Of a stretch of DNA of 64,000 nucleotides, positions 1-64,000 are shown piece by piece (positions within the stretch are counted from its first letter, which is position 1; every line of letters begins with the position of its first letter). Both the position numbers and the translations under genes were made by a program. The stretch comes from Trebouxia sp. TZW2008 (Eukaryota; Chlorophyta; Trebouxiophyceae; Trebouxiales; Trebouxiaceae), in the NCBI GenBank assembly GCA_002118135.1, contig BDIU01000232.1, positions 124,001-188,000 of the forward strand, in the 5' to 3' direction. The notes below the pieces were generated by a model that searched no databases, was not told the DNA's origin, and saw only the letters and a list, made by a program, of their open reading frames with translations.

Positions 1-3000
1 GCAGAGACAGCGCAGTATCTCCTGTTGGAACCAGGTGACATCGCAGTCAAAATAGATGCAGTGATGCCAAGCCCTGTAAGCATACTGCCAGATCCAGCAT
101 TCAGCTTGTGACAACATGCTCAAAAAAGCTTTGGACTGTACAGAACAACTTGAAAAGCAGATCACCTCCTGCTGGAACCAGGTGACATTGCGGTCAAAGT
201 AGATGCGGTCCTGCCAAGCCCTGTAAGCATACTGCCTGATGCAGGATGCGACCATCTCATGTCTGCTCAAAACAGCTTTTGACTGTACACAACAGTGATG
301 AAGCAGTTCACCTCCTGCTGGAACCAGGTGACATTGCGGTCAAAGTAGATGCGGTCCTGCCAAGCCCTGTAACTATACTGCCTGATCCAATGGGGCAGGC
401 GCCGGATGTCCTCCCTCTTCTTAGCCTCCAGGTCTGCCTCCAGCAGCAGCTCAGCATGAAAGGCACGCTCAAAATCCTGCAGCCACAGCAAAGCTGCTTC
501 AACAGTGGCACTGCTTTTGGAAGGAATTTTATGTACTGAATGCAAAAGGCATGCTTTTGAATGCACATGCAAAGTCCTGCAGGCACAGCAATGCTGACGT
601 CACTTGGCACTGCCTGGAACAATTTCTTAAGTGCAGGTTCCTGGGAGCATTCTGGCTCTAGATCAGAAAACTAAGCATGGAAGGCACGCTTGAACTCCTG
701 CAGCAATAGTCACCTCCCTGTTAAACAAACTTGAGATCAAAAGACAGGACACTGTCAAGAAGATGGTACTGCCTTGAATGGTCCTTTAGTCAAAGATGCT
801 GGAAGTATTCTGACGCAAGATCATTCTCCAGCAACAGCTCTGCATGTTTAGCGCGTTCAATATTTTGCAGCCAGAACCACCTTGTTCAGGATTGGCATTT
901 GGACAAGACTTGAGATCATGTATGGCCTCCGCATCAGCTGAGCAAGAAAGGCACGCTCAGAGTGTTGCATAGGACTGCTGCGTTGAACCAAGTTTGAATT
1001 CCTAAATTGAGTTGAGTTTGAAAGCTGAGTTGAGTTGGCTCAAGTGCACAGTGAGATCACGTGACTTGAACCATTGAAGCATCTTGAGACCGTTGTCTCA
1101 TGTGCAGGGTTGTGACAGTATGCAGATGATACACTGATACGTTGATAACTCAGTAGAAGACTTCCAGCGTACGGGGATATGCTGCAAGGAGACATGTATC
1201 ATGACAATAGTTCAACAGGTACCATGAGGACCCAGATTTCAAACATGAAGCAGAATGTATGGGGACCAGGCACCTCATGTGCATGTTCACCAATACAGCT
1301 CCTTTGCAAGAGCAGCTTACATGCGGCTTGAAGTCTGAGAGAGGCTTGATCTCCAGGATTCCACAAATCTTGTCAAACAGCTCAGGTGTGAGGGTCTGCA
1401 GCACTCCATGAGCCCACAGCACATTGCACAGTGCTCCTGTGTGCCACAGTATCAATGGTTTAGGATGCTGCAGATCTTATCAAAAAGCTCAGGCGTCAGT
1501 GTCTGCAGCACTCCATGAGCCTACAGCACATTGCACAGTGCTCCTGTGTGCCACAGTATCAACGGTTTAGAATGCTGCAGATCTTATCAAAAAGCTCAGG
1601 CGTCAGTGCCTGCAGCACTCCATGAGCCCACAGCACATTGCACATTGCTCCTGTGTGGCACGGAATCAATAATTCATGATGCTGCAGACCTTGTCAAACG
1701 GCTCATGAGTGACTTTCAGGTGTGAAAGGTCCATAATGTGCTTCAGCCATCTGCTTCAGCGATAAGCAGATTGACTGTTCTAGTGCATACAGAAGCAATG
1801 ACATGCCTACAAAGCGGAGCATCACCTGCTTCCATGATGTGTAGGTTTGGTAGCATGCGCTGCGTCATTTGGTCAATGAGGGGTCCTGGGTGATGCACCA
1901 TGTTGGCATATGCTGACACCATGTCAGCCAAATAAGATGGCAAAAACCCGTCCACCTGTAGGAGAGACAGCACAAGTCAAGCAAGCGGTGTCCTCTGCGC
2001 AGTGATGTACCTAGTGGCTTGTGCCTTTAGGTAGTGCACCATGTTGGCATATGCTGACACCATGTCAGCCAAATAAGACGGCAAGAAGCCATCTACCTGT
2101 AAGAACAAAACAGGTCACTGATGTCTGCTTTGTATCATGCAATAGCTCTTGCATGAGTTGTGTGACGGCATGACGGCAAATGACATGACAGGAACATGTC
2201 CACCTGTAGTATAAGACAAGGCACCAGCAGCGTCATACACTAGATCTTGCAGGGCTCGCAAGACTACAGGATTGTACAAAGCCAATGTGAGTGATTGTGC
2301 CTTTGTCATGCAGCATATGGAGTCAGCATGGAACGGAGCTGAATCAAATTGCATACACCTGTTGCAGCGCTTCCACAGCCATAGCATCATCCAGGTGGTG
2401 TGGCAATGAATTACTGTTTTGAATGACAGCATGACATTGGCGCAGGGTGTAGCACCTGTTGCATCGCTTCCTCAGCCACAGCATCATATAGCTCTTCATG
2501 GTAGTGATGCAGCGTTGAGAAAGCGCACAGCAGGCGGCTGAGCTACTCATGACATTCAGTCATCGCAACACTTTGAAGTTCTCTGTCAAGTTTGCAGGAA
2601 TGTGGCACCTGTTGCAACGCTTCCTCAACCACAGCATCATACAGCTCCTCATGGTGGTGATGTAATGTCAAAAAGGCCTACAGCAGGCTGCTGAGCTGCG
2701 CAGAAAGCAGCACTGGAACTGTAGGACTAAGTCATTGTGGCTATGTTCAGGATTGCATGTAGTGCAGCACCTGTCGCATCGCTTCCTCAGCCACAGCGTC
2801 ATACAGCTCCTCATGGTAATGATGCAGTGTAGAAAAGGCCCACAACAGGCGGCTGAGCTGCTCAGGGCCAAAGCTGCCCATCTGGCTGATGCACGACTTG
2901 GCTATGTTGTCTAGTAAGGTCCTGGTTCTGCGATTTCCATTGCCTCCGTACTCTGTTTTGGCCAGGGCCCACACAACATTGACCATGCTGCTGGGCTTGA

Positions 3001-4905
3001 GCTCCTGCAAGCGCAGTGCTTTGCTGACCAGACAATGTTGCTTATGCACTGAAGTGCCTGACGCCAATGCAATGTCTAGCTTGAGATTCAGTCCAAGCCT
3101 TCCAAGCCTTTGACCAGATCAAGCTGTTTTACAGGCTGGTACTCTTGGCACAAGCGCATTAGCAAGGACACAAAAGGGGCATGTAGCAGGCGGATTTGAT
3201 GAATGCCAAATGGGGTAGCGCTTGGATGCCCTGTTGCACAACAACAAAGCTGCATGACCAACAGCAAAGCAGCAACCTGTACACAGACAGGCAGCACATG
3301 CAACACCTTACAGGGCATTAACATCTGCAAAGCATCACCCGGTGCAAATGTAGCACTTGTAACAAGCATTCCTTCATTCATTCATCAATGCCTACAGAGG
3401 CCGTCCATCAACTGTGGAGCAGCACCTTATGCACACGCAGCATCCTGGCTACAACAGCGTCAACCCAGTCAGCATCAACATAGCTCCAGTGGCCCAAGCT
3501 AGCATACGCCCACAGCATGTTGGCCATGTCGCCTGCCTCAAAGGCATTGACCTTCTTCAGCGCTTCGTCAGACACAGCATCCAAGAAAACATCTGTAACT
3601 GCGTCTTTGTGCTTGAGCACCGCAAAGGCGCACACCATTTGACTCATAGCTGCAACCGGCATGCTGCTAAGGCGAAACAGCAGGCTCTGCGTGACTACGG
3701 TGATCATGTGGTCGTGCCTGTGGTTCAGGACTGCAAAGGACCACATGAGGTCTGACAGTTCCACAGGGCCAAAGTGGTCAACCCTGTCTATCACCTCCTT
3801 GGCCACCGCATTCAGCAGCTTGACGTTGCGGTGGCCCAGCTCTGCAATGGCTAGCATGAGAGTGCCCAACTGACTAGGCGTGAGTTCTGCAAAGTATGTA
3901 CGGGCCAAGGAAGCTCTGATAGCTTCAATCAGGGTCTCAGAGGCCTGGTGCCCAAAGAATGCAAGGCTGTTAAGGGCTGTGGTGAGTTCATCAGCGTCAA
4001 ACTCCTTGTGTAAGACTTGCTCTAGGCGCTGGCCCACTTGCTGCAACACTCTGGCTGGAGGCTGCACGTTTGAGGCAACATAGGCTGACAAGGCGACTGA
4101 AAGCTGCTGCAGGGTGAGCTCCTGGACCTTGTTCACAGGCGCTGCGTTTAGCTGCTCCCGGACTGCTGCCGCTGCCCAACCTGTACAATTGCCAGTCAAG
4201 TCAGTCAGTCAAGTTAGTCCGTCATGTCAGTCAGTCAAGTCAGTCAGTCAAGTCAGTCCGTCATGTCAGTCAGTCAAGTCAGTAGTCAAGATGCAGCAAA
4301 TCGTTTTGTTCAGAGTTGGTCGGATGAAGCCTTGATTGCCAGATAGACAGCAACATATCATGGCGTGCTTTAGGCGGTAAAGCAGGTCTCCAAAGGGTCG
4401 TAGAATGTGTGTACCAGTTGAACACACACATGGTTCAGGAAAGTATAAGAGCTGGTGTCAAGCACAAGCATGTGAGAACGGTTTGAATGCCGTGTGAGCC
4501 AATGGCAGCTATGAGGTGCTTGCCTGTATCCTCATCATGCAGCTCCTCAACGTCACTTGGAGCTAGTGTATGCCGCAGTTGCTCTACTGCATCCTTCCCG
4601 ATGTTGTCCAAGCTTTGCTTATACACGTGTAGCAGCCCTTGAAGACTGGCTAAGCTAGGTGCATCTGCTGCTGTTGTTGCTGGTGTGGACAGCAACGCAT
4701 GGTAGAGCCTGGGCTGCATGCTAGGTCGAAAGGCTGCCAAGCTGCAAAGAGGCTGATGCGCTTGATATACAGATCTAGCCAGACAGAGACTGCAGAACTG
4801 CGCAGAAGCTGCTTGGGAGGCGGCATGCCAGCGGTTACCGGCTGGCTCAGTAGCTGCAAGGTGTCTGCTTGCGAGGAAAAGCCTGCTGCTTGGGAAATGA
4901 AGCAA
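1..4905 (-). CDS. Organellar helical-repeat protein of the HPR/RAP (FASTK-like) class, incomplete at left edge
   Basis: Recognisable exons lie at about 4430-4905, 3426-4178, 2771-3023, 1826-1955 and 1321-1395, plus one around 300-490. The protein is built of 35-40 residue helical repeats with cores such as LSDLMWSFAVLNHRHD, MANMLWAYASLGH, VNVVWALAKTEYG and LSRLLWAFSTLHHYHEEL. This is the heptatricopeptide pattern of green-lineage proteins that bind organellar RNA, often ending in a RAP domain; no RAP domain is visible here. The first exon reads like an Arg/Ser/Ala-rich targeting leader, but its frame has no ATG until 4719, so the start is not fixed. The segment near 300-490 (WIRQY, RIYFDRNVTWFQQE) belongs to no family I know and could be a second gene. 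At least five exon-edge duplication arrays interrupt the locus. Class is fairly secure, exact exon set is not. Confidence 0.6.
21..390 (-). repeat. Donor-side exon-edge array, period 146-147 bp, 3 copies
   Basis: The motif CCTGYTGGAACCAGGTGACA recurs at 21, 168 and 314. On the minus strand each copy carries the end of an exon (RIYFDRNVTWFQQE) and its GT donor. Only the copy at 300-390 joins a longer upstream reading frame, so 21 and 168 are downstream partial copies. Confidence 0.85.
461..985 (-). repeat. Acceptor-side exon-edge array, 4 diverged copies
   Basis: Related starts of an exon coding LQDFERAFHAELLLE occur with anchors at 461, 682, 850 and 949 (spacings 221, 168, 99). The 461 copy is intact and leads into the full exon. 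The others are upstream in the gene and broken, for example by a stop after FHA in the 682 copy. The same exon carries the donor-side array at 21-390, so it is flanked on both sides. Confidence 0.7.
1396..1700 (-). repeat. Acceptor-side exon-edge array, period 107 bp
   Basis: The anchor GCACTCCATG recurs at 1401, 1508 and 1615, exactly 107 bp apart, with a degraded fourth unit near 1680. Each unit holds intron end, a CTGCAG acceptor and the exon start TLTPELFDKIC. The full exon (1321-1395) follows the last copy in gene order. Confidence 0.85.
1826..2100 (-). repeat. Acceptor-side duplication, 141 bp
   Basis: The exon at 1826-1955 begins VDGFLPSYLADMVSAYANMV after a CTACAG acceptor. The same acceptor and first 20-odd codons recur about 141 bp upstream in gene order (2036-2100), then decay into intron. 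Confidence 0.8.
2368..2870 (-). repeat. Donor-side exon-edge array, spacings 97, 154, 161 bp
   Basis: The exon at 2771-3023 ends ELYDAVAEEAMRQ and a GTGCTG donor. Copies of this end recur downstream in gene order, with CGCTTCCTCA-type anchors at 2780 (true exon), 2619, 2465 and 2368. The copy near 2465-2550 keeps a long stretch of the exon. Confidence 0.8.
4195..4291. repeat. GTCA-based minisatellite in an intron
   Basis: Tetranucleotide-based repeats of the type TCAGTCAGTCAAGTCAGTC are interrupted by GTCCGTCATGTCAG at regular spacing. It lies in the intron just upstream of the second exon of the HPR gene. Confidence 0.85.
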
Positions 4906-5501
4906 GCTTGACAGGTGTCTACAGGCAGGGTCTATAAAGTATGAAATCGGTGCGTCGCTAGTGGCTACGGTCCCTGCACATGTGCAATCTTGATCTGTAC
5001 TTGAGGATTGATTGTCTCAGATGATACAACATGTGCAGACGGTACCTGACAGTCGTAGACGGGACAAGGCGGTAGCGAGGCTTGATGACCGGCAGCGAAA
5101 CATCTCAACCGATCTCCGGTGTGGCTTCAAAATTAGCAAAAAGGACCGTGAATGGTGGCAGCAACGTGGCTGAGCTGCTAGGAGATTGGTCAGTTTCAGG
5201 CGCGGGCAAGCTGCGCTTTCAAACACTTCGAAACACCACACGTGTGACTTCAGAGCTAAATGTTGGTCAGCAGCGCTTGAGAAGCTCTCGCTAAAGCTAC
5301 AACAGACAAAGGGGACATTCAACAACAGTGCGCAAGCAGCATCAACCAGAATGAGCGTTGGTCCTGCATCAAACTGCACTTGGCTTCCTCGAGTGCTGCT
5401 TCATTAGTCATGCAGTCAAACGAGCTGTGTAACAGTCTGAATTGCGGACCTTTGTTTGCCCGCTTTCGCGAGGTGACAGCCGGAAAGGATCAGCGGCAAA
5501 C
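4906..5501. promoter_or_regulatory. Shared upstream region of the HPR protein and mARC genes
   Basis: About 600 bases separate the most upstream codon of the minus-strand HPR gene from the mARC ATG. Nothing in it reads as a convincing exon and no obvious TATA element was recognised. The head-to-head layout is the basis of the call. Confidence 0.4.
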
Positions 5502-8500
5502 ATGGGCATCTTCGATGCTGTGCTGCAGTCAGTCGGATTGGGCCCAGTTTCTTCTGCCAAAATGCGCGTCGCCTCGTTATGGGTCTATCCGGTCAAAGGA
5601 TGCAGAGGTTGCGAAGTTTCGCAGGCGGTGGTCGAGGTTACAGGTGAACTCGCGTGATGCATTTGGAGGTTCTTGGCGCTTCGTGCTGACACAACAAATG
5701 GCGTGGCAGGTTTCGCGTACGATCGCTATTGGATGATCGTGACCGAAGCAGAAGGCCGTTTTGTGACCCAGAGACAAGAGTCAAAACTTGCATTGATACA
5801 AACACAGCTTCCGCAGACAGCTTGGACCCATAACGAAAATATGGAGCCGAATCCTATCGCCGCGCTGACGCTGTCTGCGCCCGACCTGGCGCCGATGCAG
5901 GTGAGTGCAAAGCAAACTTGAACGGCAGGCTGTGCTGGTGAATCAAATACTGTACAGGCACCGAGCTTTGCAACACGGAGTATCGTGTGCTGATTAGGTG
6001 CCACTTCAGGCCCAGAGCAACCCCAGCTGGTTGTCTGTGCGCTGTCATGACTGGAAGGGTGATGCCATAGATGAAGGCGATGAAGTTGCTGCCTGGCTGA
6101 GCTCGTTTCTGGGACAGCGTGTGCGGCTGGTCAAGTACGGAGGTCAGTCATGCAATTGTGCCACCTCGCCTTCTGTGTTCTGATGCACACGCATGCAAAG
6201 CCATTTGAGTACGAGCATGGACAAAGCATGGTGCATGACGCTCTGTATGCTGCGCTGTGGTGCCTGCAAAAACAGTGCTCTGGACATACATTCTACAAAA
6301 AGCAGTAAGCAATTCTGGTGTGGTGCCATATGCGCAATGCAGCAACGGCTTGCTTAGAGCAAGCAGGAGGAGGCAGCAAGGTGCTCTGCATCACCAAAAC
6401 ACCAGCTGTATCTGTTAGCAAGCTTACCAAGAGTGTTTGTTTCTACATGCTGAAACATGAGACTGCTTGCACAAGTGCCATAACCACTCCTACATGCTAC
6501 AGCTGTGTGCAGAAACCATCTACAGTAATCTCTCAATGTAACGACTGCGTTGGATACCAAGAAAAATGTCCTTACATTGACTTGTCCTTGCTCAGAAGTA
6601 CCATCGTAGTCAGAATGCAGTGCTTGGTTCCCAAATGGATTGTCCTTACATCAAGACTGTCCTTATATCAAGTGTCCTTATATCAAGAGATTACCGTATA
6701 GTGCAGCACTGCCAGCGTCCACAAAGGCTTGCTTCATGACGCCTATAGCACTTTCCTTTCTTCTCCTCTTGTTGTTTACATTTCATTCCTTCACAACCTT
6801 TTTTTCCTGAATTTATGCAATGCAGCAATGCAGGGGTGCCAGGCCTCACAGGACTGGATGGGGACCCCCACAGGCGGACCTCTGCTAAGGGCTGGAACAC
6901 CAAAGGGCAGAGTGAAACTGCCTTTGCTGATGCGTTCCCCTTTCTAGTCACCTGGCAGGTCTGTCATACATCAAAAAACAACTGTGGTATCATCACAACG
7001 CAGTTGCATCAAAGGCTGAGTTTGTTGATTTGCCTTACTTTCATTTGTCATCACACTTGAACAGACAAAGTCTGCACTGATGGGCATAGCTTATCAAAGT
7101 TGAAATGCCAAGCCTTTTTCGCCTGCTGATATCACCCAGCATCTGCATAAGTGCTGTCGTTGTACGTGGACATGCTCATATCAGCAGTTCACAGCAGACA
7201 TACTCTGCCAGCAAGTCCTGCCTGTGAATGCATTGCATTGCACTGCTTGCAGATTTCAGTGCATGCCTGTTGTTGCCAGTCAAGCTTGCTCTGCCCATCA
7301 CTCGCAGTGACCTGAATGTATATGCTTCACTTTGCATGAAGCTGCACAACAAGCTTCAAATATGCAAGGGAACATTACAGTGAGCTTGCTTGGTGCATTT
7401 GTGCTGTGGCGGGTAACTTGATGCAGCAGCTTCAGCAGCAAGCATCGTATCAGTATTGGTTGCAGCAGACCCTGTTGCGTTATGCAGGCATCTCTGGATG
7501 ACCTGAACAACCATTTGGATGATCCAATCTCAATGAACCGCTTTCGCCCGAATATTGTGCTAGATGGCGATCAGTCAGCGTGGGAAGAAGACCAATGGGG
7601 TCACCACAATCTTCACATCAGAGTCAATAGTGGCAACAATGTACAACTGGAGCTTTGCAAGCCATGCAGCCGATGTACTGTAAGCAGCTGTTTCACTCTT
7701 GTCTTGCACATACAGTGACACCTTGATGTAATTACTGCATTTTTACCAAGGAATGCGTCACTACATTGAATTGTCACTATTCAGCAGTACCGTTGCAGTC
7801 AAAATCCAATGCGCGTGATTGGTTCCATATTCATTATTGTCACACCAAGCATGTCACTACATTGAGTGTCACTACAGCAAGAAAACACTGTACAGTGCTG
7901 CTTGATATCTAATCATGCTGACATGTATGACGCTCTGTCAATTGTGAGCAGAGATGTCATTCCCAAAGCTGTGCCCCTTTCCTGCTGTTAACAATGAGCT
8001 GTACAAACTGCATTGAGGGCTTTGCGTGAGGCATGCACACAGCCTTTAGCATTCTGTGACGACATGCAACCCTGTGGCAGAGCTTTGGCATATGGGCTTC
8101 ACGTGATGCAGCTCTGCAGCACCTCAAATGCATGCGTCTAACAGACAGTGAGTACCATGAACATGCACTCTGCTTGCAGCTGAACTTAGAGACAGCAGCT
8201 GAGAAGTCTGTATGCCCTTGCTCAGGAGTCTGTCACCGGGCTTGGCTTCATTACACCAGATGGCAGCAATCTTCTTGCTCAGCTCTGTTTGCTTGTTGCC
8301 TGCAGGTTCCTCTTGTGGAGCAAGAAACTGGCGAGAAAGGGTCTCGGCCAATACTTGCCATGAAAGATTTCAGGCTTGGCAAGCACTTGGGCTTTGACAA
8401 GTTTGGGTCATATGCCCAAACACCAATCTATAGGGGAAGCGCTTAAGGCTGTTGGGTTTTGTTTCAGGTGCCCCTAGTGGAGCAAGAAACTGGCGAGAAA

Positions 8501-8695
8501 GGGTCTCAGCCAATACTTGCAATGAAAGATTTCAGGCTTGGCAAGCACTTGGGCTTTGACAAGTTTGGGTCATATGCCCAAACACCAATCTACAGGGGAG
8601 GCGCTGTCAACAGTACGACATTCTTCGGCTGGGATGCTGTGCCATTGCAACTTGGTGCCATCATCTCAACAGAAGATGCTGTGACGGTCAGATGA
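5502..8695 (+). CDS. MOSC-domain molybdenum cofactor protein, mARC-like (amidoxime-reducing component)
   Basis: Six exons close in phase: 5502-5643, 5710-5900, 5998-6142, 6834-6958, 7488-7679, 8468-8695, giving 340 aa, the usual mARC size. The N-terminal MOSC beta-barrel has LWVYPVKGCRG and GFAYDRYWMIV; then come AFADAFPFLVT, ASLDDLN and MNRFRPNIVLDG. A Cys-rich CKPCSRC motif just before VPLVEQETGE matches the site of the Cys that binds Mo in mARC. Such proteins take electrons from cytochrome b5 and its reductase to reduce N-hydroxylated compounds. An in-frame TGA at 5655-5657 falls inside the first intron (66 bp) and is removed. The last exon is preceded by a 162-bp partial copy of itself, which could give a shorter C-terminus. 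Confidence 0.9.
6529..6706 (-). mobile_element. MITE-like element, main subfamily (copy a)
   Basis: It lies in an mARC intron. Its reverse complement matches the elements at 56010 and 57590: repeated TGTAAGGACA-type motifs, then CTGCATTCTGAC and a middle TACCTCTGAG. No coding capacity. Confidence 0.7.
7735..7895 (-). mobile_element. MITE-like element, variant subfamily (copy b)
   Basis: It lies in the last mARC intron. Its reverse complement reads TGTAGTGACACTCAATG where other copies read TGTAAGGACACTCAATG; the same change is present in the following motif too. One end reads CACTGTACAGTG. Confidence 0.65.
8306..8612 (+). repeat. Acceptor-side exon duplication, 162 bp, in mARC
   Basis: The last coding exon starts at 8468 after TTTCAG. 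A near-identical copy starts at 8306 after CCTGCAG. Copy 1 stays open for 46 codons and ends in TAA at 8444-8446 where copy 2 continues to the normal end. Both acceptors look usable. Splicing to copy 1 would replace the 75-residue C-terminus by a 46-residue one. Confidence 0.9.
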
Positions 8696-8870
8696 TAACA
8701 GAGAAAAGGTATTGTGATCATTCGATGATCACAGAAGACACTGTGACAGGCTGATGACCGCAAAGTATATACTGTGACAGTCAAGTGACCACACATGCAA
8801 AAACTGCTGTGATAGGTTCAGCACAGCAAAGGACCATGTGACAGTCAAAGGACTGCATTTGAAGACGCTT
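8676..8870 (+). repeat. Degenerate 31-35 bp tandem repeats starting at the mARC stop
   Basis: About six units begin TGTGACRGTCA or a variant and continue with ATGAYCACA-like sequence. The first unit supplies the last codons and stop of mARC, so the array spans the end of the coding region and the 3' UTR. Confidence 0.65.
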
Positions 8871-9740: not shown

Positions 9741-12700
9741 TTATTGAGCAGTCCCATGATGGCTTGAGATATGCAAGTGTCGGTGAAGACGGCCCTTTTT
9801 GAGTCGTGCTGGTCTTTCAATCACATCAACTGGCTCATGCTCGATTGCTAGACGCGCCCATGGGTCAGTGAAGCTCCACCGATCTTGGTAATACTTCTTC
9901 ACCATCGCTGTTGTATTCAAGACCTCACAGTGTTGCAGCATGAACCGATAGCCTTGTGAATCAGCCTCAGTGACATCAGCATCAGCCAAGTCGAAATGAA
10001 TTAAGCTGTCAAGCAGAATGATTGGATCATCCCGTAGATGATCCAGTTCTTGCACGATTGCTGCTGTGTCTTCAACCTCGACTATGTCCTCTGACAAATT
10101 GAAACCTGTAGCCCCAGCTTCAGCCTTGCTGTCCTGCTCAGCATGCAAAGCATGGATGGTGAACTCTGCAGTGCTTGAATTTGTGTCGCTGCCGTTTGAC
10201 AGATGCTGCTGTCTGAAATGGTCCCATTCCCAGGGCATCAGCCCTCTGCCATCGCCCAGACAAAATCGTCTTGCAATCTCCCATGTGGTGCATATCAGCT
10301 GCCCATCAGCTGCAGTCCACGGAAGCCACATGTCTCCCAGATTGATGGGTGCTTTGTCTGTATGCCGACCCCTGCAGACAATTTTACCAGTTTGTGCATT
10401 ACTATAGCCGTCTCTCCAAATGATCAGCGTCTGCACGGAAGCAGCAAGGAACTTCAGCCTGCAACACTGGCTGAAGCGTCCTGAAGAAGGCTGCTGTCAG
10501 TCCTAGAAAGTTGGCCTCAACATGTTGTGATGCTACTGTGGCATAAGCTGCTATGCTGTGGCTACAGCATGCATACACAAGGAGCCTGAATGGCAGCTGA
10601 CATATGGACATTTCAGCAAAATCTCAAAAGCCAATGAGCGAATCAGCTTTTGAGCAGATCACACACAGCAAGCAGCAGCAGCAGCTGTCAGAGAGCAGGG
10701 CGGGCGGCACACAGGTGTAAAGGGTGAAATCGTTGACATGACAGCCTAGTTGACAACGCCAGCAGCATGCATTTGTAGCCACCTGACCCAGCCACCTAAA
10801 AAGCGGAGAAAAAGAACCACTCACATGCTGACCCAGGCGGTATTGCATGGTACACTAGGCCAAGCCACAGCCCTGTCCAACAGCCTTGCCAGCTTAGTCA
10901 GCCCCTGTACTAACAGGATGAATTCCTGCCAGCTGCCAGAGTTACTCAGCAGCTTCTCTGCGCGATCAGTGAAAGCTAGGGCCTTGAGCTGTGAGCAGTC
11001 GCCAGTACATGCGGTGTATAGCATGCTTCCCTTGGCTTGTTTGGCTAAGTCCCAGTCATAGGTCCCAATGGCCATTGGAACAGTGTACTTGAGAATATCT
11101 GTGTCAGCAGTTGGGTTGAAGTGTGTGTGTCCTATGACCTGCAGAGGACAACACAAGTCAAACTTTGCATCTTGGCGTTGTGCAATACTGAGCAAGCAGT
11201 AGAGCAGGGAATACATTAGATGGCAGCATTGACACTTGCATTGAAGTCAGTTGGTGCAAAACAGGGTGCACAATGCGGATGACTCAAACTGCTAGAAGAA
11301 ATCAGCCGTTTTACAATCCACAGAGCACAGTGCTATACAGCAAGCGCTGTCAGCCCTTGCATGCTGTCATGCAGCCAGCAGAGAGGCAAATTACAGGCGG
11401 TTGATTACCTGTTGCGGGACGCCACCTGTTAAGTGTGGGTTCCAGTACCCATGCTTGCCTCTGAGCCAGAATCCCCAGCCCAGCCAATCAGGCATCATGG
11501 CAAACTTCTCAGTAGGCACAGCATCTGCCGCTGCTGCGTTGTTTGCATTTTCAGGGTCTGGCCACATGGGGCAGTCTGGACAGTCATCATGCAGCTGCTG
11601 CAGAAGCTCATTGGAGAATCTGCCGCGCTGTGAGGGGTACCACTGGCCCCCAAACTCCTCAGGCCACCCCCTTCAGTCAGATCATCAGCATAGCGTCGAC
11701 GACATGCATAATTAGAGTGAGAGAATTGTGACACGCTGTAAGGAGTAACACTGACCCCCAAACTCCTTGGGCCACTCCTTTCAGTCGTGGCATCAGCACA
11801 ATGACAAAAATGTGTACCAGAGCAAAACACGAGACTTGTAGTTGCTGTGTGGCAGGTAGAAATGACCTTGGCTGCTTGGTCTTGGTGTTCCTGATAGCAT
11901 CGTGCACCATTTGCATAAGACTGACAATGCTCTAAGCAGATGATGAACATGTCGTCAACAGTAACATGATGTCAGCAATGTAGCAATGCACTCCTGAGCA
12001 TGCATGGGTGAATGCCAAGGTGGTGAGCAGTACTGTACATATCAGCAGAGACTTCATGAGTCACACTTGACAGCGCTGTAAGACTTTCAGATGCAAACTG
12101 CAACCCAGAATTGAAAATGTATGCTGATCAGCAGCTGCAAGCAGTTCCTGTCGATGCTTAAGAGGTCTAGCACTCAGCGGACAAGTAAAGAAAATGGCCC
12201 TGACGCGTACTACCTCTTGGCTTTCACATGAAGTCATAACAAGAACATTTCACCAAGATGGACCATCTTCTTTGGCATGTACTGGGCAGCCATGCTGGCA
12301 CAAACAGCAACTCAGCACGGCAACAATACACAGCAAGCATTCTGCATGGCTAAAGCACCAGCACTAGACATGTCACCTGCAATTGGGCATCTTCATTGTC
12401 ATGTGTCTCAAGGGATATGACTCCTTGCCAACCACGGCCTGCCAGCTTTCAGGTGCATCAACTGTCTCTGTAGTAAAGCCCCAGTCCTCTCTGCACAACC
12501 ATCACACTGTGTATCAGACCAAGTTGTACGCAAGAGCATTGTCATCATTTACGATGAGTAGATGATGACAATGCTGGAGATGTGGATCAACCTGCCAAAA
12601 TGGTTAGCATTGGTCACAAAGGGTGCAACAAGCTTCGCGTCTGATGCAACAAATGCGGTGGCAGCGATGATGTGGGAATTAAGTCAAGCGTGGCAAACAG

Positions 12701-34986: not shown

Positions 34987-35020
<34 letters not shown>

Positions 35021-45860: not shown

Positions 45861-48800
45861 GCTGTGCCACTTCAGTATGCAGTTGCATTGGGGAAATCCA
45901 CAAATATCTGCTGCACACAAGCAGCAAAGCAGCGTAGTCAGGGGTGACCTTGTCCCTGGTCATGCGGCGGTACTCTGATGTAAACAGGTATGGGTGCCCA
46001 TCACTGCTTGTTGTGGATGCAGCTTCTGTTGGCTGCGGATCTGCAGGCACAGCAGCTTCAGCATCATGTGTGTCATATGTAGACTACACGATGAGGCACA
46101 GAGGTATGGGCGCCCATCATCACTTGTCATGACATTTACATTGAGGCACATGGTTACGAGCGCCCATCACCATTTGTTGTGGCTGCGGCTTCTGATGACT
46201 GTAGATCTGCAGGCACAACACTTGGGGCATCTCTTTTGGAATGTGTAGGGTGTGCAAAGAGGCACATGGGTACAGGGTACCCAGCAATGCTCGTGGCAGT
46301 TGCAGCTTCTGATGGCTGCAGATCTGCAGGCACAAAAGCTTCAGCATCTGATTTGTCATATGTAGACTACACAATGAGGCACAGAGGTATGGGCGCCCAT
46401 CATCACTTGTTATGACATATACATTGAGGCACATGGGTACGGGCACCCATCACCATTTGTTGTGGCTGCAGCTTCTGATGGCTGTGGATCTGCAGGCACA
46501 ACTTTCGGCATCTGATTTGGCATATGTAAGATGTGCAAAGAGGCACATGGGTGCGGGGTACCCAGCAATGCTCGCGGCAGTTGCAGCTTCTGATGGCTGC
46601 AGATCTGCAGGCACAAAAGCTTCAGCATCTGATTTGTCATATGTAAATCATGCAAAGAGGCGCAGAGGTACAGGTCACAACCATTTTTGGGCTGCAGCTT
46701 TTGATGGCTGTGGTTCTGCGGCACAAAAGCTTTAGCATCTGTTTTGTCGTATGTGACTAATGCAAAGAGGCCTATCACCACTTGCTGTGGCTGCAGCTTC
46801 TGCTGGCTCTAAATCTGCAAGCACATGACCCTTGAGCATTACTGGACCTGAGCTTATATAAAGAGTTAAGGAGTGTTGAGACAAAGGGTACAGAGAGCGT
46901 TGGAGGCAAACGTCTGACAACGACTTGAGAGTCACGAGCACAGGTGCCTGTTTTGCATCAGAGTTGGGCAATGCAAGCTGTGGGTCAGAACGTGCATGCA
47001 GTGACAGACTGAGGCAGAACCCAGCAAAGAAGGCATCAGGGCAAGACAGCCAGCCTATGTGGACTGGAATACGCTGCAATGCCAACTCAATAGAGCAAAG
47101 AAGGCATCAGGGCAAGACAGCCAGCCTGTGTGGACTGAAATATGCTACAATGCTAAAAAGTATCAACTGGCAGCAGTTCAATTTGCGCAGCTTGCATGTT
47201 GACTCTTACTGGCTTGGGTAGGCTCTGAATTTGACTGGTGCAAGTTATCACTCAACATAGCATCAAATTGGTCTTCAGCTGCCATGTCAGAATGGGAGAT
47301 GTGGTTTTCCAGCATCCTGACCCATTCTTTGAGGTCGTCAGGGGCTTGCCAGCCAGTGAATACATACTTCTGCAGGTACTGCTTGTACTGCAGCAGCTCT
47401 GCATTGCTCATGTCTGTGGCCTGCACAATGACAGAGAAGTGAAATTTTGTGCTGCAAAGCAGACAGCCAAACAGAGCACCAGAGACTCACCAAGAAGCGT
47501 GGCAAATTTAGTATTGCACAGACTTGTCTGTGCATGCGGGCATTTACACTGCAGGTTGTGACCCTCTTCGCGTGCAGGCATTTGACAGCTGCAATTGGGT
47601 GAGATGCATTGCAACTGTACACGCTAGCCATGGCGCCTGCACATGTCTGCATGCAATGCTGCAACAGAGCATGCTGGCCGATTGACCCAACACCATAGAG
47701 CTGCCTGACCGTTGTTTGGGCAGGGGCAAACTTATGAACAGCAGCACTAGATCTATTGACCAATCAGTCATTCTTTGGTGTGCGTGCAATCAAATCCGCA
47801 CAAAGAGCAGCATTGTCAAGCCATAGCAGAAGAAGCTGGCTTGGCCAAGGACAGGACTTGGCGCACACACATCAAGTGCTTGTGCTGGTACATGCAACAA
47901 CTCGGTTGTTACAGGAGACACATGCCTGCTCCAAACATGCATGCACATCTGCACAAGGCAAAACCTTTGAAGATTTTCCCAGGAAATCCTTTCGGAAACA
48001 TACTTTCAATTGTCCTTTGGGAGGCAAAGGACAATGCACAACATTTCTTGCTTATGAAAGCACAGCAGATTTCTACCTGCTCCAAAGGTGAAGGGTGCAA
48101 AGGCCCCTGCAGGCGCTCAAGCACAGACTGAGCCCACTTGAGCCAGGTGGGTGCAGCAGGCAGCCCCAGGGGGGCAGGGCAAGGTAGCCCATCTAGTCCG
48201 TACAAAACCTTGATGGTGACTATCAGCACTGCCATGGTGTAGATGTATGGTGAGGTCCAGCTTCTATTCTCTACTTCAAAGAGGCGCATGTAGATGGTGC
48301 CCTCTCTGTAACAGCGGTATATCGCCATAGCAGGAGCAAACAGAGCCTGTACAGCGCAGACCACAGACTGTACCCAAACATGAGGAGATAACAAGAAGTA
48401 CTCATCTGTACAGTGTCTGGCATACATTGCCAGGTGTGTGTGGCGCAAGCCCTGTCTCGCCAGGTAGACTTGACTGGAGCCTCATGAAACAAATGTTTGA
48501 TGTTCATGTTGGATATCAGACAAAACAATGTCGTTTCAGCTGTTCCTAGGTCCTAGATCCTGGGCAGGTAGGTAGATAGGTGGGTAGGGAGATACTGCGA
48601 CTTTCTTCGCCTTTGGATGCGTGCCAGATATTGCAAACCAAATCTGCAAGCTTGTCCGAGGCTCTGTGACCAACAACCTGAGTCCCAAGACATTGCAGTG
48701 TACACCAGGAAAGCACCGACCACTGCAAGCTGTTTGCATTTGCCAGGTTGTTTACTCTCCTGAGGTACATGAGAGCCGTCGTGACATGCTAAACAAAGAG

Positions 48801-51800
48801 CCATGCTTATAGCCTGCGCAGAATGGTTTCTGACACCTTCTGAGGGTTCTCACAGTGACAAGTCTTTTCAGAACAGGCAGAAAAAGAAAGAGACCAGTAT
48901 GCATGAATGATACCAAGCAGGGGACTATCTGCCTCTGTGAGCTACCTTCGTTAGTACTGAAAGCCAGTGATTGACGAATTGTCAGATGCACTAAAAGCTC
49001 TGCACAGCTAGCTTTCCTCACAGCACAGCCACTTGTTCCAGCTGTGAAGTCCAACTCATATGCATGTGGTGAACATGCCTGAACACATGTACAAAATCGT
49101 GCGTAATTGTATTACCAGCAGTCACACATTGAGGACAGAGGAAAATTCTGTACCGGCTGGGGATGAGAGGGTTCAAGTCATTGTGATAGTGCAGCAGGAC
49201 ATGGAGCACTCACGTCCGTGCAGCTGGACACTTGTACATGTGCATGGATATTACATACCAGGTACCTGCGCATACCTGTAAATATTCATACACATGTAAA
49301 TATGCGTACACTTAAGTGTGCAACTTTGTGTTTGAATGTATGATCAAAAGTCATTCAGCCATAAATTATACCTGAGGCATGGCCAGCTCCACCAGAGTGC
49401 GCTCAATCACCAAAGCTGCATTCAGCGGCGGTATCTTGAGTTCCAGGTCTGCTGCAGTCTCAGCTGCCTTGTTCAGTAATGTCTGAGCGTTGATGAGACC
49501 TGCATGGAAGTTTGTGCATGAGCTGAGAAGCTCTGTCAATACCTGTCGTAGCATGCTGAAAATCACTGCTACGACGTCATTGCAAGTTGATGCTCTTTTG
49601 TAGCTTGAATGGCAGCTAAGCATCATAGCGTGTTGGATCACGCCGTCATTGAGCTCGTTGTCAACAGCACAGTGCAAAGCAAACAACAAGCAGTTATGCA
49701 CTGATGAGTCAGCTGTGCAAACTGAAGACTTTCATGCTTGAGATTTCAGCTGCAGGTGGAAACCTGGCTTCCTTTGCACAGCACAAACATCAGCTGGAAA
49801 CTTGCCAATCTTATTTATCATGGGCTGCATTCATCAGGATTTGTGGGCAGGCGACTGACCGTAAGGAGTTGCACTCTTCATCGTTGCAAGTGGCAAAAAC
49901 TGCCCAGCAGGCGTCTGAAGCAAATCCCTGCATCTGGTCGGCATGTCCAGGAAGGGAATCTGACCCAGTAATGCGCCTCTGATTAGGTCAACATGATCAA
50001 CTGCCTCTCTGCCCAGCCAACAGATGAGCAGACAGATCACCAACAATGTATTTGGGGTTAGCAGCTGCAGGCAACAACATCACCCTCAGCAATTTGTAGA
50101 AGTGAGATGTGAGTTTGCAGGGTCCATCTGATCTGGTGTACTGACTCGTAATTTTGCCACTTGACCAACAGACCAGAGGATTACTTGCAAAGTATGTGGA
50201 GGTAGCAGCTGCAAGCAATAGTAGCAGCCTTGGGCACAGGGAAAACGGCTTAATCTGATGCGCACAGCAGTCACTACACATGGCTTCATGCACAATTACT
50301 GATAGAATTGTAAATTCAGGTTGTGTCTTTGATGCAGTGCAACAGCCTATGACCGCATGCACAGACAAAGCAGGAGTGTTGTAGAAGTCTCAGGCAACAA
50401 CATGTTTCACTGCAGTGGAGCCTTTGCAGGCATGATGTTTGAGACTAGAGCACTTGCCACTGTCAGGGAGTCACGCAGCTCAGCTCTGAGAGGCCGCTTG
50501 CGGTGCTTGGTGTCTTCGTTGTCATCATATTGCTTGCCCATTGCATGCAATTCCATCTGCCTGCACCATATCTGAGTCATGAGTGCACTGGAAATTCAGG
50601 CTGGTGCCACCCATTCCTAGCAATTATGCTGGCCATAGCAATGAGTACACGATTGGTGGCGTTTCTGTGTATACAATATCTTGCTGAGAGCTGCATTTTG
50701 GACAATGTGGACATACAAGCTTGCAAATGCGATGTCTTGCATGCATTGCACCATGCAAACAATGGCAAATGCACAATGGGTGTCACAGTTGCTTACTCCT
50801 GATTTGCGTCACTGAGAAGGCCGCTCTGAGCAAGCATGGCTGTCCATATTGGCAATGCTGCCTCTGTGCTGCTGGACTGAACTCCATAAGTCGTCACTAG
50901 TGCCTCAAGCTGTGCCTGTGCATACAGGAAAGCAGTTGCCAAAGTTGTTGATTGCTCCAGTACGTCCTAGCTAGGCCTGCTGAGCCTGTCAGCATGCTTT
51001 TGTATGATGAAAAAATTGAGTTGCCAAAGCTGCTGAAGCCATACAGGAGCTGTCAAGGACACAAAGTAGGCAGTGCTTGAAGCAGCAAGGAGATGTATAA
51101 TGTCCCAAAACAGCTATGTGCAGGGAGGTCACTAAGGGCTTCGGGCTGCGGCTGTGCATACAGAAAAGAAGGTGCCAAGCTGCTGAAGCACTGCAGTAGC
51201 TGCCAAGGACACAAAATAGACAGTGCATTGAAGCAGCAAGGGGGTGTACAATGTCCCAAAACAGCTGCGTGAAAAAGGTCACTCAGGCTTTGGGCTGCGC
51301 CTGTGCATACAGAAAAGCAGGCGTGAAAGCTGCTGAAGCCATATGAGAGCTGTCGAGGACACAGACTAGACAGTGCGTGAAGCAGCAAGGGGTTGTACAG
51401 TAAGTTCGCTTTGTATGGGCACTCGATGTAAGGAGTTTCTGATGTAAGAACAATGCAACTGGGAAGCGATCACTGAGTTCAGAATGCAGTGGTGTCTCTG
51501 AGTACAGACATTGTGGTGTAAGGACTATTGTCTTGGTGACCAAAGCAGTTGTGATACAGAGAAATCACTGTACAGTGTTTCAGCCAGCTGTGTGAAGGGA
51601 GGAGCTTGCCTGCAGCATGACTTGCATGCACTTGCAATAGCATTTCAGCTCCTCACGCACGGATATGGCAACTTCATCGCCAGCAATGATTGTTTTTCTT
51701 GTGGTGAGGCGCACCCTTCTGCGTTTGCTGTCATCGATGCCAACCTGAAACTCAGCTGTTTCCTCTACAAAATCCTGCCACAACAATACATATGGATTGC

Positions 51801-55259: not shown

Positions 55260-58200
55260 TCATTCTACGTCAAAGACATCTGCTTGGGGTTGATTCTGGG
55301 TGCCATACATGCGCTGCTTCCTCTGCATCTTCAGCACCTTGATTGCCTTCTTCAAATCTTGGATGGTGATCATATGCGATGTAGCTGCAGGCACAACATA
55401 TGCGGTGTATAGTACTGGGTCTATAACAATAACAATAATAATTGACACCTGCTGGCATATACTGCTAGGTGTGTGTGGCACAAGCCCTGTCTCATCAGGC
55501 AGGCTTGTTTTGCTATGGTATCAGGTCTGGGCCGCTCCTACTCATTGAGGCTCCCACTACCATGCCTAACGGCAGAGAATCCTCTTTTCTTTTTGAGTAT
55601 CAGGAACGTCCATTGAACACAGGCAGGAGCAAGCATGGCAGACTCTTGCGTCATGATGCCTAACGGTGCACACTTTTGTGATTTCTCTTTTCACAAACAA
55701 GCAGAGCAGCAGGATCACTGGCTGCATTGTAGGCCAGTCATCTTGGCTGCTGCAGATGGTGTTGTGACAACCATGCAGGCATGTCTTGAGCACATCATAC
55801 GTCCAGCAAGCATTGAAACAGAAGTAGGCACATGCAAGACACCTTGCATGCGCTGGTTTGTGGGCATACATACCTGTAGCAGGACACTTAATGCTTCCTC
55901 TATTCTGTCTGATATACTGCTCAACGGCGTCCTTTTCATACACATAGCCCTTCTGATCAGCCACAGGATTCTCAATCTCCAACAGCTGCGTACCAAGCAC
56001 ATACAGCAATCTCTCAATACAAGGACACTTGATGTAAGGACATCCTTGGTGTAAGGTCAATGCAACAGGGAACCAAGCACTGCATTCTGACGACAATGGT
56101 ACCTCTGAGTATGGACAATTTGATGTAAGGACACAATGTTTGGCAACCAAAGCAGTCGTTACAAAGAGGGTTCAATTTACATTGTATTCAACACTCTCTC
56201 TCAAGGACGAGCATTTCATGCAATCCAGCTGCAGAGCGTATGAAGCAGCACACCAGCTGTTGGCATCATAACTGGCTGCCAGAGTGCAGGAGCAACAAGT
56301 AGCTGGCTGACGGAATGGTGGCGCATCATTCACTAATTATCTGCCTACCTACCACTGCCAACTACAGGAAGGATTCAAAAAAAGAGATAATATAGTAGCA
56401 AGAGTTGAGAATCAGAGCAAACACCCAAAATATCAGAGAAGAGGATAAAGAATTAGACAAACAACGCAGATCTGACAGTCACTGGCACCCTGCAGCCATG
56501 GCTGCAGACAAATGCGATTGAACTTGTCAGCAAACAACATGTGTCCAGCCGCTGTAGGATATCACAGTAGCAGAGCAAGCACAAGCTGCTGATGCAAGCA
56601 TTAAAGCAGTGCTCTTAGTGCTTTCATAGCCAGGGGGCATTGAGCATTAAGTGCTGCGCCTGAGCAATTACTGCAGAGATGTAGACAAGTGCAACTGAGA
56701 TTGTCAGCAATTTGTGTGCAGCCAGTAAAGACATAACAAACAGCGGAGCTGCTAATGCCTGCAGCAAAGCAGGGTTCTTACTGGTTTCATAGTGAGGGGG
56801 CATTAAGCATTAGGCGCTGCGCCTGAGCAATCACTGCAGAGGTGTATACAAGTGCAACTGAGATTGTCAGCAATGTGTGTGCAGCCGGGAAAGACATCCC
56901 AGTAGCAGAGCTGCTAATGCCTCCATCAAAGCAGGGTTCTTACTGCTTTCATAGTCAGGGGGCATTGAGCATTAGGTAATGCGCCTGAGCAATCATCGCA
57001 AAGATATAGATGAGTGCAACGGAGATCGTCAGCAATGTGTGTGCAGTCAGTAAAGACATATCAAAAAGCGGAGTTGCTTATGCCTGCATCAAAGCAGGGT
57101 TCTTACTGGTCTCATAGTAAGAGGGCATTGAGCATTAGGTGCTGCGCCTGAATCGCCCCCAATCTGTACTTCAATGTCGTCGTCCTGCTGCTGAGCTTCC
57201 TCTTCCTCATCTTCATCTTCCAGCCGTTCACAAAAGTCCTTGTAGACTTGCTGAAGTTGAGACCTACAAGCGGCATGGGAAGTCTAGCACAAGCTTTATC
57301 AACAACTTTCCGTAAGTACACTTGCCTTGTAAGGACATTGCCATTGGGAACCAATGACTGCACTCTTACTGCAGTAGTGGCTCTGCAATTAGGTAACAGC
57401 ACTTGATGTATGTAAAATCCAATTGGGAAGCAATTGCTGCACTCTGAGTGCAGTAGCCCCTCTGAGTAAGCCTAATTTGGTGCAAGGATACTGTTCCTAG
57501 TAACATAAGCATGACAAAGAGAAGTCAGTCCAGGCTATATAGAATTCTTGAGGCATTTGTTCTGAGGCAGTTGAGCTTCTCACAACACGGTAAGTGCTCT
57601 TTGTAAGGACACTCAATGTAAGGACATGCTTCATCTAAGGACAATGCAGTTGATAGCTCATCACTGCATTCTGACTGCAGTTGCACCTCTGAGTGATTAT
57701 ACTCTGGTATGAGGACGTTTTTTGGAGAACTAAGGCGGTGGTTAGAAAGAGAAGCCACTGTACCTGGCTGCACGGTGCCTCTGAAAAGACGCAAGGAAGA
57801 ACAGAGCACAGACGGCAACAAAGACAAAACCAAAAGAAAGTGAGTTTATGGATCCTTCAACCAGAGAAACACATAAACACAAAAGTGCAAACATGGAGTA
57901 CAGCAAGCAAGAAAGGGCAAGGCTAAGACCTGAGGCTGGGTTGGAGCCGTGTGGCGTGGCCTTCCAAATCCTGCTTGAAATTTGTTGTCTCATCATTGAC
58001 TACATAGTTGTTTGCCACAGCAGCCCAGGCTGCTCCATAAGCCTTAGCCTCTGCCTCAAGGTCTAGGATCTCTTTGACAACCGCCTTTGCAGCTGCAGTC
58101 TGCAAGCAACAAGGCCTGCAACCACTGCAGTGCGCAAGCAACAGGGTTTGCCATACTGTGCAGTACCTGCTCAAATCCTTCTACCCCAAGCAAACACTCT

Positions 58201-61900: not shown

Positions 61901-63001
61901 TGTTGAGTGTCAGTGTTTTGCGTGGGACGGGTGTGAGCTACCATACTTCTTTTGCACATCTGCAACATGCTTGTGTTTTGGGTGCACTGCCCTCAATGCT
62001 GCGCACATGCTGCAGGGGTCAGCTGCACTTGCATCCAGAGTGGCTGCAGCTGCTCAGTGCTGACAAGCAGTTGCTGCATTACAATCGTCTGGCCAACCAC
62101 TTCTCCGACACCTTCATATCAGCTCCAGTTGGCGGCACCTGTGGGGGCTTCCTATGTGATGAGATGGTGAGTTAAGCTGCCAGTGCTAAAGCTCCCTTCT
62201 CCCCCTTGGTCCCTCTCCCCAACCCCTCTCCCAGCGACACATTTGCCCTCCCTCCTTTTCAGTGCATATGCCACCTGGCAACATGGTTTGTCTGTCCAAG
62301 ACTTACTTGTCTCGAGTGCCTGTATGCATGCTATTGCATTCGTTTGTCTGCCTTGGCCCTCTGAATCTGTAAATGTCCAGCTGATGTGTTTGTGTATCAT
62401 CTTGCTGCTGGTTGCCTGTAGATTTGTTCTCTGCCTGCCTGTCAGAGTGCGTGGTCTTATTCTGCAAAGCCAGAGACAACTACACAGGCTGCTTGAAGGT
62501 CAGCGCATTGGCAGCCAGATTGCTGTGCAATTGCCAGCCACTATGCTCAAACTTGAAACGCCCAACTTGATGCCAAACTCTCTGCATGCCAGCTGCTTTC
62601 CCATACCCTGTGAAATGTGTCCGCAGCTGATCTCTACCCTAGCACTTCCCATGCAAGGCTCTGCTGGCATTCAGATTGACGAGAATGTCAGGTGCAACTC
62701 CAGATGGGGCTGTAAGCAACCTCTGCTGACATATCGTACAACAGTGCTGTCAGCAGCACGCCCCTATGACTGCAAATAGTCTGCTGCCGTCACAGGGGCT
62801 GGGCAAAACCCTGCAAAGCCTGATGCTGATACTGGCCAACCCCCCTCCAGCCTCCTGGCCTGTGCATGACCTGGACAAGAACACACATGACAAGAGTGAG
62901 GCTGTTCCCATCAAGACCACCCTCATTGTCATGCCAGCCAACCTGCTGCAGCAGTGGCAGGATGAGATGGCCAAACATGTGCAAGATGGTGCCCTCAAAT
63001 G
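58921..63001 (+). CDS. SNF2-family ATPase of the RAD5/HLTF (or SHPRH) class, incomplete
   Basis: The first exon (58921-59278) codes a UBA-like segment, RDFVGPTVPRRRLQELLEAA then GDVQRAIDLHF. It joins in phase to an acidic exon (59375-59538), then about 59826 onward (FCRDVAEVPEKAVVPVKYPV, compatible with a HIRAN-like region). Exon 60749-61687 ends SIPKQFQLQGLQWMLDRE, the RAD5-type entry to the ATPase. Exon 62016-62166 codes HPEWLQLLSADKQLLHYN then GGFLCDEM, completed by 62796-63001 as GLGKTLQSLMLILANPPP (Walker A) and TLIVMPANLLQQWQDEM (motif Ia). The rest of the helicase and any RING finger are not seen. RAD5 extends ubiquitin chains on PCNA and remodels stalled forks. Class sure, subfamily less so. 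Confidence 0.78.
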
Positions 63002-63440
63002 GTGAGCTGCACATTGCTCACCCATTACATGTCTGTCTGTCTGACAAGCTCCTGCAGCAGTGGCAGGATGAGATCTTCAAACAAGTATAAGCCGACGCTC
63101 TCAAATGGTGCGCTGCGCATTGCTCACTCAATGCATGTCTCTCTGTCCGTCTGGAAAGCTCCTGCAGCAGTGGCAGGACGAGATCTCCAAGCATGTGCAA
63201 GATGGCGCTCTGAAATGGTGCGCTGTGCACTGCTGCACCTCAATGAATGTCATCTGTCTGAAAAGCTCCTGCAGCAGTGACAGAATGAGATCTTCAAACA
63301 AGTGCAAGACAACGCTCTCAAGTGGTGCGCTGCGCATTGCATACCCATGGCATGTCTGTCTGTCTGAAAAGCTCCTGCAGCAGTGGCAGGATGAGATCTC
63401 TAGACAAGTGCAAGATGGCGCTCTCAAATGGTGCTTTGAA
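62943..63440 (+). repeat. Donor-side exon-edge array in the RAD5-class gene, 106-110 bp, 5 copies
   Basis: CTSCTGCAGCAGTGGCAG anchors at 62943, 63049, 63159, 63266 and 63372. Each unit repeats LLQQWQDEIxxxVQDGALKW plus donor-side intron. Copy 1 is continuous with motif Ia and ends in a GTGAGC donor. Copies 2 and 4 have in-frame stops (TAA; TGA), copies 3 and 5 stay open. Confidence 0.92.
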
Positions 63441-64000
63441 CAGCCTCACCTGAGACGCATGTTCTGTCTATCTGGTCCTGAGGTCATTGCTGCAGGAATG
63501 GCAGCATGGCCTCATTTAGCATTTGCAAGATGCCATTCTCTCTTGTGGCACTGTAATGAGCCTCATGCCAACACTAGACACCAATGTGCAAACACAGTTC
63601 CTCACATCCCTCTATTCTGGCTCTTGCAAAGCCTGTGATGCATGAAACCAATTCAGAGAGTGCCTTGGCAGTGCAGATTGTTCACAGTCCAAGTCACTCG
63701 CAAGCTGATGTTGCTGTTGGGCACTTTGTCAGCGCTTCTGTGCCAAGGATGGACTAGCTGAGCAGCATGCTTGCGCAGATGTGTGTGTGACAGCAGAGCT
63801 GACTGGCTGGCAGCAGTCAGGCAAGAAGGGCACAAGGGCAGGGGCAGCAGCAGCAACAGCCTCTGCTAGGACCCCCATCTGCATTTCAATGGCAGACTGC
63901 GGATCTGACTTAGAGGCATGCTTGCACAGGTGTGTATATGACGGGAGAGCAGACTGGCTGGCAGCAGCCCAACAGCCAGGCAAGAAGGGCACAAGGGCAG
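63431..64000. repeat. Right edge: unresolved region with a 159-bp duplication
   Basis: GCAAGAAGGGCACAAGGGCA recurs at 63821 and 63980. The minus strand has an open frame (63729-63992) reading IEMQMGVLAEAVAAAAPALV, so an exon of a minus-strand gene entering from the right is possible. It could equally be intron of the RAD5-class gene. The array is cut by the window end. Confidence 0.5.

Follow-up and report, generated by a model that had tools for sequence, protein, structure and literature searches.

Tandem copies of exon edges at splice junctions in the green alga Trebouxia resemble the mirages of amphioxus genes

Do tandem repeats in the genes of a green alga fall anywhere, or do they keep to the edges of exons, and what would put them there? 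The question is raised by a stretch of 64,000 nucleotides from the genome of Trebouxia sp. TZW2008 (the window, which is part of contig 223), in which a sequence-only reading had listed 19 stretches of tandem arrays and had proposed that nearly all straddle splice sites, that ordinary minisatellites would have no reason to do so, and that no described system is like them. That interpretation is partly supported. The arrays are real, and splice junctions carry them about twice as often as random placement would; we infer that the excess has its cause in the way in which local duplications start and survive, and the resulting structures have a described counterpart in amphioxus.

The genome assembly that we searched comprises 68.5 Mb in 527 contigs, and our sample of it covers 304 kb, made up of 104 kb from contig 223, the window among them, and twenty 10-kb pieces of other contigs. 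This sample contains 97 array clusters, about one per 3 kb, occupying 49,859 bases (16%), against 0 hits in a control made of one first-order Markov shuffle of each sequence; with Tandem Repeats Finder and self-BLAST, local direct repeats were recovered in all 19 of the stretches listed earlier. Cutting each array to one unit, under somewhat stricter criteria than those of the cluster count and with one zero-length unit dropped, left 81 collapsed units and took out 26.9 kb of the 304 kb. Their median period is 143 bp (quartiles 123–166), array periods range from 88 to 387 bp, and the portion of exon edge that a unit carries is mostly 35–160 bp.

The closest named proteins to three genes of the window belong to Trebouxia, green algae found in lichens, and gene structures could be verified for a set of three genes with 52 splice junctions. 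For a UDP-glycosyltransferase (UGT) gene of eight exons, the 543-residue protein P0001, encoded by an intronless contig of 1963 bases, is identical at 541 of 541 aligned residues; to judge from the lack of introns, P0001 probably represents the spliced transcript of this gene. The structure of a RAP-domain gene was taken from the spliced alignment of P0046 (Trebouxia sp. C0005) and that of an SNF2 gene from P0054 (Trebouxia C0004), so that the exons of these two are verified by orthologues and not by RNA of the species itself, and their end exons are uncertain. Copies of the junction's own exon edge lie in the adjacent intron at 13 of the 52 verified junctions (7 acceptors and 6 donors), whereas none of 364 comparisons of verified exon edges with non-adjacent introns of the same gene gave a match, and only 1 of 29 exon-internal control windows had copies. 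By hand count, 25 of the 32 listed copies end within 1 nt of the junction. All 13 arrays in these genes sit at junctions, for which uniform placement over hand-collapsed intron lengths gives P = 1.3e-6; this placement count includes an array at acceptor 66723 (exon overlap about 10–15 bp) that is absent from the 13-of-52 census. With a weak intron-only array of the RAP gene added (at -1035 to -709), at least 13 of 14 do so, and P is 5e-4 when only junction and intron placements are considered. The features of the verified genes that fall in the window are as follows.

312–476, minus strand: orthologue-supported exon of the RAP/FAST-kinase-like gene (P0046 spliced alignment, Pfam), with arrays at both ends.
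19–389, minus strand: array copying the 3′ edge (donor 312) of exon 312–476, with copies at 19–96 and 166–243.
477–985, minus strand: weak copies, at irregular intervals, of the 5′ edge (acceptor 476) of the same exon, from the repeat search and junction census; in the listed stretch, 461–985, the matches are short (71–83%).
1355–1717, minus strand: array of period 107 at acceptor 1436 of exon 1321–1436, with an in-frame stop in each of two copies.
1826–2096, minus strand: exon 1826–1955 and a single copy (2030–2096) of its first 67 nt, with a non-homologous spacer between.
2356–2865, minus strand: array at donor 2771 of exon 2771–3004, with an in-frame stop in each of two copies.
36729–36942, plus strand: UGT exon confirmed by the transcript-like P0001, with arrays on both sides.
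36105–36828, plus strand: array copying the 5′ edge of this UGT exon (acceptor 36729; junction census).
36867–37364, plus strand: array copying its 3′ edge (donor 36942; junction census).
37801–38056, plus strand: copy of the 3′ edge (donor 37904, a verified junction) of exon 37705–37904.
39016–39264, plus strand: copy of the 5′ edge (acceptor 39227, a verified junction) of exon 39227–39532.
62901–63565, plus strand: array with five copies of the 3′ edge (donor 63001) of SNF2 exon 62796–63001 (P0054 alignment).
63751–64000, plus strand: copy of the 5′ edge of exon 63930–64217; the repeat extends to about 64034, beyond the window.

For the whole sample, junctions were predicted by a self-trained gene finder, which was then retrained. 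The splice signals of the self-trained finder were CAG/GTRAG and TTGCAG/G, and it called 41 of the 52 verified junctions exactly (42 of 52 after retraining), although it is poor at gene ends (starts and stops) and missed genes score as intergenic. Among the 81 collapsed units, 51 span a predicted junction, against 23.2 (standard deviation, sd, 3.9) at random, and another way of setting the unit ends gives 55 against 24.2 (sd 3.8). Fewer units than at random lie wholly within introns (8 against 20.6) or between genes (12 against 26.8), and exon-only units number 7 against 9.1. Random placement inside the same gene puts 26.9 units on junctions (sd 3.7, maximum 39 in 2000 trials), against the 47 of 62 observed; the arrays at predicted junctions comprise 31 at acceptors and 19 at donors. 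Without collapsing, the raw excess is small (59 of 69 against 50.4, sd 3.6), because the introns have been lengthened by the arrays themselves, and in a held-out 10 kb (L026), scored by eye on uncollapsed sequence, a predicted junction lies in 5 of 5 clusters. Plain geometry is rejected by the collapsed-array test and the same-gene control, and an ordinary minisatellite, as had been suspected, fits poorly, since array positions in the collapsed, verified-gene and same-gene tests are not indifferent to gene structure.

Within the window, the claim that nearly all listed stretches straddle a splice site holds on supported junctions for ten of the 19 (21–390, 461–985, 1396–1700, 1826–2100, 2368–2870, 36090–36800, 36888–37365, 37805–38055, 39091–39265 and 62943–63440). 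Six others (8306–8612, 11600–11810, 26857–27045, 41311–41665, 46041–46830 and 56600–57130) lie on junctions given by the gene finder only, called on uncollapsed sequence, where false exons arise inside arrays: there the retrained finder called 67 junctions in the three verified genes, 25 of them false, many inside arrays. Two (25905–26570 and 50916–51400) are intergenic by prediction. The stretch 44470–45860, said to copy C-terminal codons and a stop, was recovered only as 44949–45887; this does overlap a predicted coding end at 45808, but the retrained run places a donor in what appears to be the same array. The polarity that had been noticed, with copies before the exon at acceptors and after it at donors, is there to be seen but is no independent clue, because any copy lying in an intron must show that order. 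The arrays outside the verified genes are these.

8285–8605, plus strand: two-copy array at predicted acceptor 8468 of a MOSC gene, 95% identical over 141 bp, with a 21-bp spacer.
11614–11798, minus strand: array at a predicted exon edge near 11670, exon-only in the retrained run.
25815–26441, no strand assigned: array, intergenic by prediction (repeat search and gene predictions).
26848–27047, plus strand: two-copy repeat at predicted donor 26898 (gene prediction).
41256–41668, plus strand: array near predicted exon 41616–42231 (gene prediction).
44949–45887, minus strand: array over the predicted coding end (stop at 45808; gene prediction).
45971–46839, minus strand: array in the same predicted gene as the preceding one (gene prediction).
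51019–51399, no strand assigned: array, intergenic by prediction, close to 50966–50988, where 23 bp weakly match a dispersed repeat.
56503–57151, minus strand: array at predicted donor 57107 of an Nse2-like gene (gene prediction, Pfam).

It is informative to examine what the copies are. The transcript-like sequence of the UGT gene, the one gene for which this can be said, has its exons in full and lacks all the copies. In 28 copies that are separated from their exon by a spacer and lie outside predicted exons, differences from the exon at the three codon positions number 91:80:192, close to the 1:1:2 that a free copy should show if its exon is constrained. At junctions that are mostly predicted ones, AG is kept in 47 of 55 acceptor copies and GT in 29 of 42 donor copies. 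Differences between exon and copy are somewhat patchy (Fisher p = 0.034 and 0.0005); the copy of exon 1826–1955, for example, has 44 identical nucleotides beside clustered differences at 1955. As had been proposed, the arrays lengthen introns: those with arrays have a verified median of 762 bp (n = 12) against 362 bp (n = 14) for those without, p = 2.9e-4, where the RAP intron with the weak intron-only array is scored as array-free. The copies would seem to have no evident function, and their effect would be to enlarge introns and to supply decoy splice sites.

Two single junctions are worth recording beside these counts. The SNF2 exon that ends at L004:962 (64962 in window numbering) is followed by a GC-AG intron (CAG/GCAAGC), and the intronic copy retains GCAAGC. 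At L024:6353, on the minus strand, 9 of 10 differences in a copied exon edge fall at third codon positions, which is more coding-like than a free copy; we take this exon, from its peptide, to be asparaginyl-tRNA-synthetase-like.

The view that no described system resembles these arrays was wrong, because in the mirages of amphioxus it is exon/intron boundaries that are duplicated in tandem, the units measuring 150–160 bp in a globin gene (PMC3087553). According to the available parts of two reports, mirages are known from a handful of amphioxus genes (Adh3 and globin, with similar repeats in PGBD5), and their mechanism is called unclear (PMC3087553, PMC3902484). Both systems show minisatellite-like boundary duplications at the acceptor and the donor side, copies with AG or GT, and normal mRNA (in Trebouxia for the UGT gene only), and the signs of homogenisation described for amphioxus may have a counterpart in the patchiness noted above. 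Length polymorphism between haplotypes or cells is a further mark of mirages. The Trebouxia arrays differ in belonging to a green alga, in numbering 97 clusters in 304 kb, in having their enrichment measured against controls, and in showing a spacer and unmatched intron flanks in 36 of 76 alignments. Intron gain by duplication across an intron-exon boundary, with the splice sites copied, has been described for the potato RdRp gene (PMC4974935); this and the duplication of AGGT-containing sequence share with Trebouxia the duplication across a boundary, but the Trebouxia copies sit inside existing introns. Intron gain by tandem duplication is rejected here, since intron length equals the array period in 0 of 94 intron-array pairs, and the arrays repeat existing junctions, as the sequence-only reading had maintained. 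In vertebrates, repair by capture of proximal DNA leaves linked duplications of up to 619 bp that sometimes include exons or splice sites, and fill-in by Pol alpha-primase at staggered breaks is a route to small tandem duplications; unlike what is seen in Trebouxia, the accessible text of the former account claims no junction preference (PMC2671141), and that of the latter says nothing of a preference for exon edges (PMC8355091). A survey of titles and abstract openings in the open-licence literature found no report of such arrays in Trebouxia or another green alga. New are the occurrence in the green lineage, the extent over the genome, the enrichment as measured, and the existence of copies that lose homology at the splice site even where they are 85–95% identical.

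What process could produce the excess? The reading that we favour, at a probability of roughly 0.45 and hence slightly short of even, is that these are mirage-type structures left by a repair-type local duplication that starts inside exons and copies outward across the splice site. Repair of a break within an exon would copy some 100–200 bp outward over the splice site, and the new end would be end-joined to the other side of the break (synthesis-dependent repair, then end-joining), so that one exon edge stays attached to the gene and a second, spare one lies in the intron. Selection would retain only those events that keep a working splice site beside the full exon. The spare copies could then multiply, contract and decay, and exchange with the conserved exon could overwrite parts of them; being spliced out, the copies would lengthen the introns. 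This reading is favoured because models of random duplication and of conversion fall short of the observed values, and closely linked copies of neighbouring DNA are present, as for repair-mediated duplication of the synthesis-dependent strand annealing type.

Several observations weigh against outward copying from exons. Of the 76 distinct junction-array alignments, 40 (group 2) have homologous intron parts, whereas 36 (group 1) have a non-homologous spacer and an exon-edge homology that ends within 25 bp of the splice site; among those with at least 85% identity, 12 of 14 end within 15 bp of it (hand count). Intron flanks should be homologous after a plain duplication over the junction, as they strongly are in group 2; in group 1, with copies in predicted exons set aside, flank homology reaches only p = 0.10 and 0.08, and the groups were set by spacer and flanks, so that the missing homology is partly a matter of selection. 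To account for such flanks, one must assume a diverged template or else a long conversion tract over the exon part. In ten young spaced arrays the differences lie mainly at third positions (10:10:40, hand count), above what a neutral copy would give. Young full-unit arrays lie on junctions in only 8 of 16 cases, in a table where one of the 81 units could not be matched to its class, and non-splice coding ends, for which the start and stop calls are poor, are not enriched (6 against 5.0, sd 2.1). In addition, exon-biased breakage is a supposition, and decay has blurred the breakpoints too far for them to show the microhomology or filler signature of a repair pathway.

The alternatives must be weighed with the understanding that our confidence figures are not mutually exclusive. 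Random tandem duplication, in which units span junctions by chance and exon-bearing copies simply stay recognisable for longer, would be helped by the likeness of median unit (143) and median exon size (142), by the small uncollapsed excess, by the neutral decay of the copies and by the half share of young full-unit arrays on junctions. Yet a simulation of it with constrained exons and the same detection thresholds gives a junction share of 0.35 against 51 of 74 observed (0.69; 50 of 73 after removal of one whole-intron unit), spaced homology in 4 of 118 young junction arrays against 9 of 17 observed at 82% identity or more, which is the contrast that carries weight given how the groups were set, and an exon overhang below 38 bp in 64 of 305 arrays against 2 of 46. 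It also fails against the same-gene control and the verified genes, the simulated effect of decay bias is too weak, and we regard this explanation as quite unlikely. Concerted evolution anchored on exons, whereby duplications that include some 35 bp of exon or more are maintained by conversion from the conserved exon and others decay, seems to us unlikely, if less so. It would account for the scarcity of arrays with little exon (though detection also needs a minimum length), for patchy identity tracts such as that at 1955, and for homology that stops where constraint stops, and it is reported for an amphioxus mirage in the available part of that account (PMC3087553). However, under 22 parameter sets, run as 14 (one of them without conversion) and 8, an admittedly crude model reached a junction share of at most 0.42, with spaced young arrays at 0.36 or less and small-overhang arrays at 0.17 or more, and coding ends are not enriched.

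A process aimed at the splice junction itself is a possibility that we hold to be doubtful. In its fullest form it would be an ongoing, genome-wide duplication with the exon edge as its unit, copied from within the exon up to the splice site and re-inserted in the adjacent intron, and tied to splicing or transcription and not to random breakage, for example where RNA-DNA hybrids or DNA bound by spliceosomes are broken or copied; this form is to our minds equally doubtful. Homology of spaced copies that ends at the splice consensus, enrichment at junctions and not at coding ends, and depletion of intergenic arrays speak for it; on the other side, no motif or intermediate is identified, the exon-side ends are scattered over 35–160 bp, and both the gene-end and the intergenic comparisons lean on a gene finder that is weak there. 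For the spaced class only, the copies might have been templated by a diverged homologue (an allele, a hybrid partner or a lost paralogue) whose exon edge was copied together with its own intron, as the insignificant flank homology beside exons up to 95% alike, the third-position excess of the young spaced arrays, and flanks that both resemble intron ends would suggest, along with the 21 of 35 spacers that lack another match in the sample. Against this, the assembly holds no close second copy of two tested loci (a search for homeologous copies found distant relatives, of 25–35% identity, on other contigs), some pairs have only about 11% third-position differences, so that their introns should still align, and the 28 spaced copies together look neutral; we consider such templating improbable. 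That the copies are functional coding or alternative exons is very improbable: 10 of 38 spaced copies do lie inside exons predicted on uncollapsed sequence and most copies retain AG or GT, but the UGT transcript-like sequence skips them, a shifted frame or a stop affects 26 of the 28 spaced copies that lie outside predicted exons, which largely excludes that both copies are coding, and 4 of 6 RAP copies have a stop. An in-frame origin is also rejected, since the period is divisible by 3 in only 7 of those 28. Finally, repeats are a classic source of misassembly, but the copies differ from one another (58–95% identity in the alignments), respect exon boundaries and recur on many contigs, and an assembly artefact is hardly credible.

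The spacers merit separate description. In addition to the 21 of 35 rows without other matches, 8 have their matches solely or chiefly close to their own locus, and 6 match elsewhere, three of which (two distinct spacers) contain a dispersed repeat of about 80 bp. This repeat occurs in both orientations, is partly intronic (L008:2112–2190, L007:3794–3872 and weakly at 50966–50988 of the window), was found at 40 places scored among 632 candidates in the whole genome, and might, as a guess, be SINE-like. An introner-like mobile element is rejected as the source of the arrays: array 1367–1705 and the one spacer tested match only themselves in the genome, and the query with exon 8468–8686 matches only itself and its own copy, in a search limited to these three queries.

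Two other tandem repeats in the window deserve mention. At 4193–4290 lies an intronic 13/39-bp repeat (CAGTCAAGTCAGT), 13 bp from exon 3426–4180, and at 27975–28158 an in-frame coding repeat of 54 bp, which is not of the junction-array type and belongs to a predicted gene that looks BTB-like by eye, no family search having been run. No Rfam family reached threshold in the window, and ARAGORN with the bacterial code found no tRNA there.

The arrays of this alga lead gene prediction astray. Should the process prove to be tied to splicing or transcription, introns would gain length as decoy copies of their own exon edges are shed into them. The abundance of these structures in a green alga would make the origin of mirages, the growth of introns and duplication-based intron gain testable by the comparison of strains.

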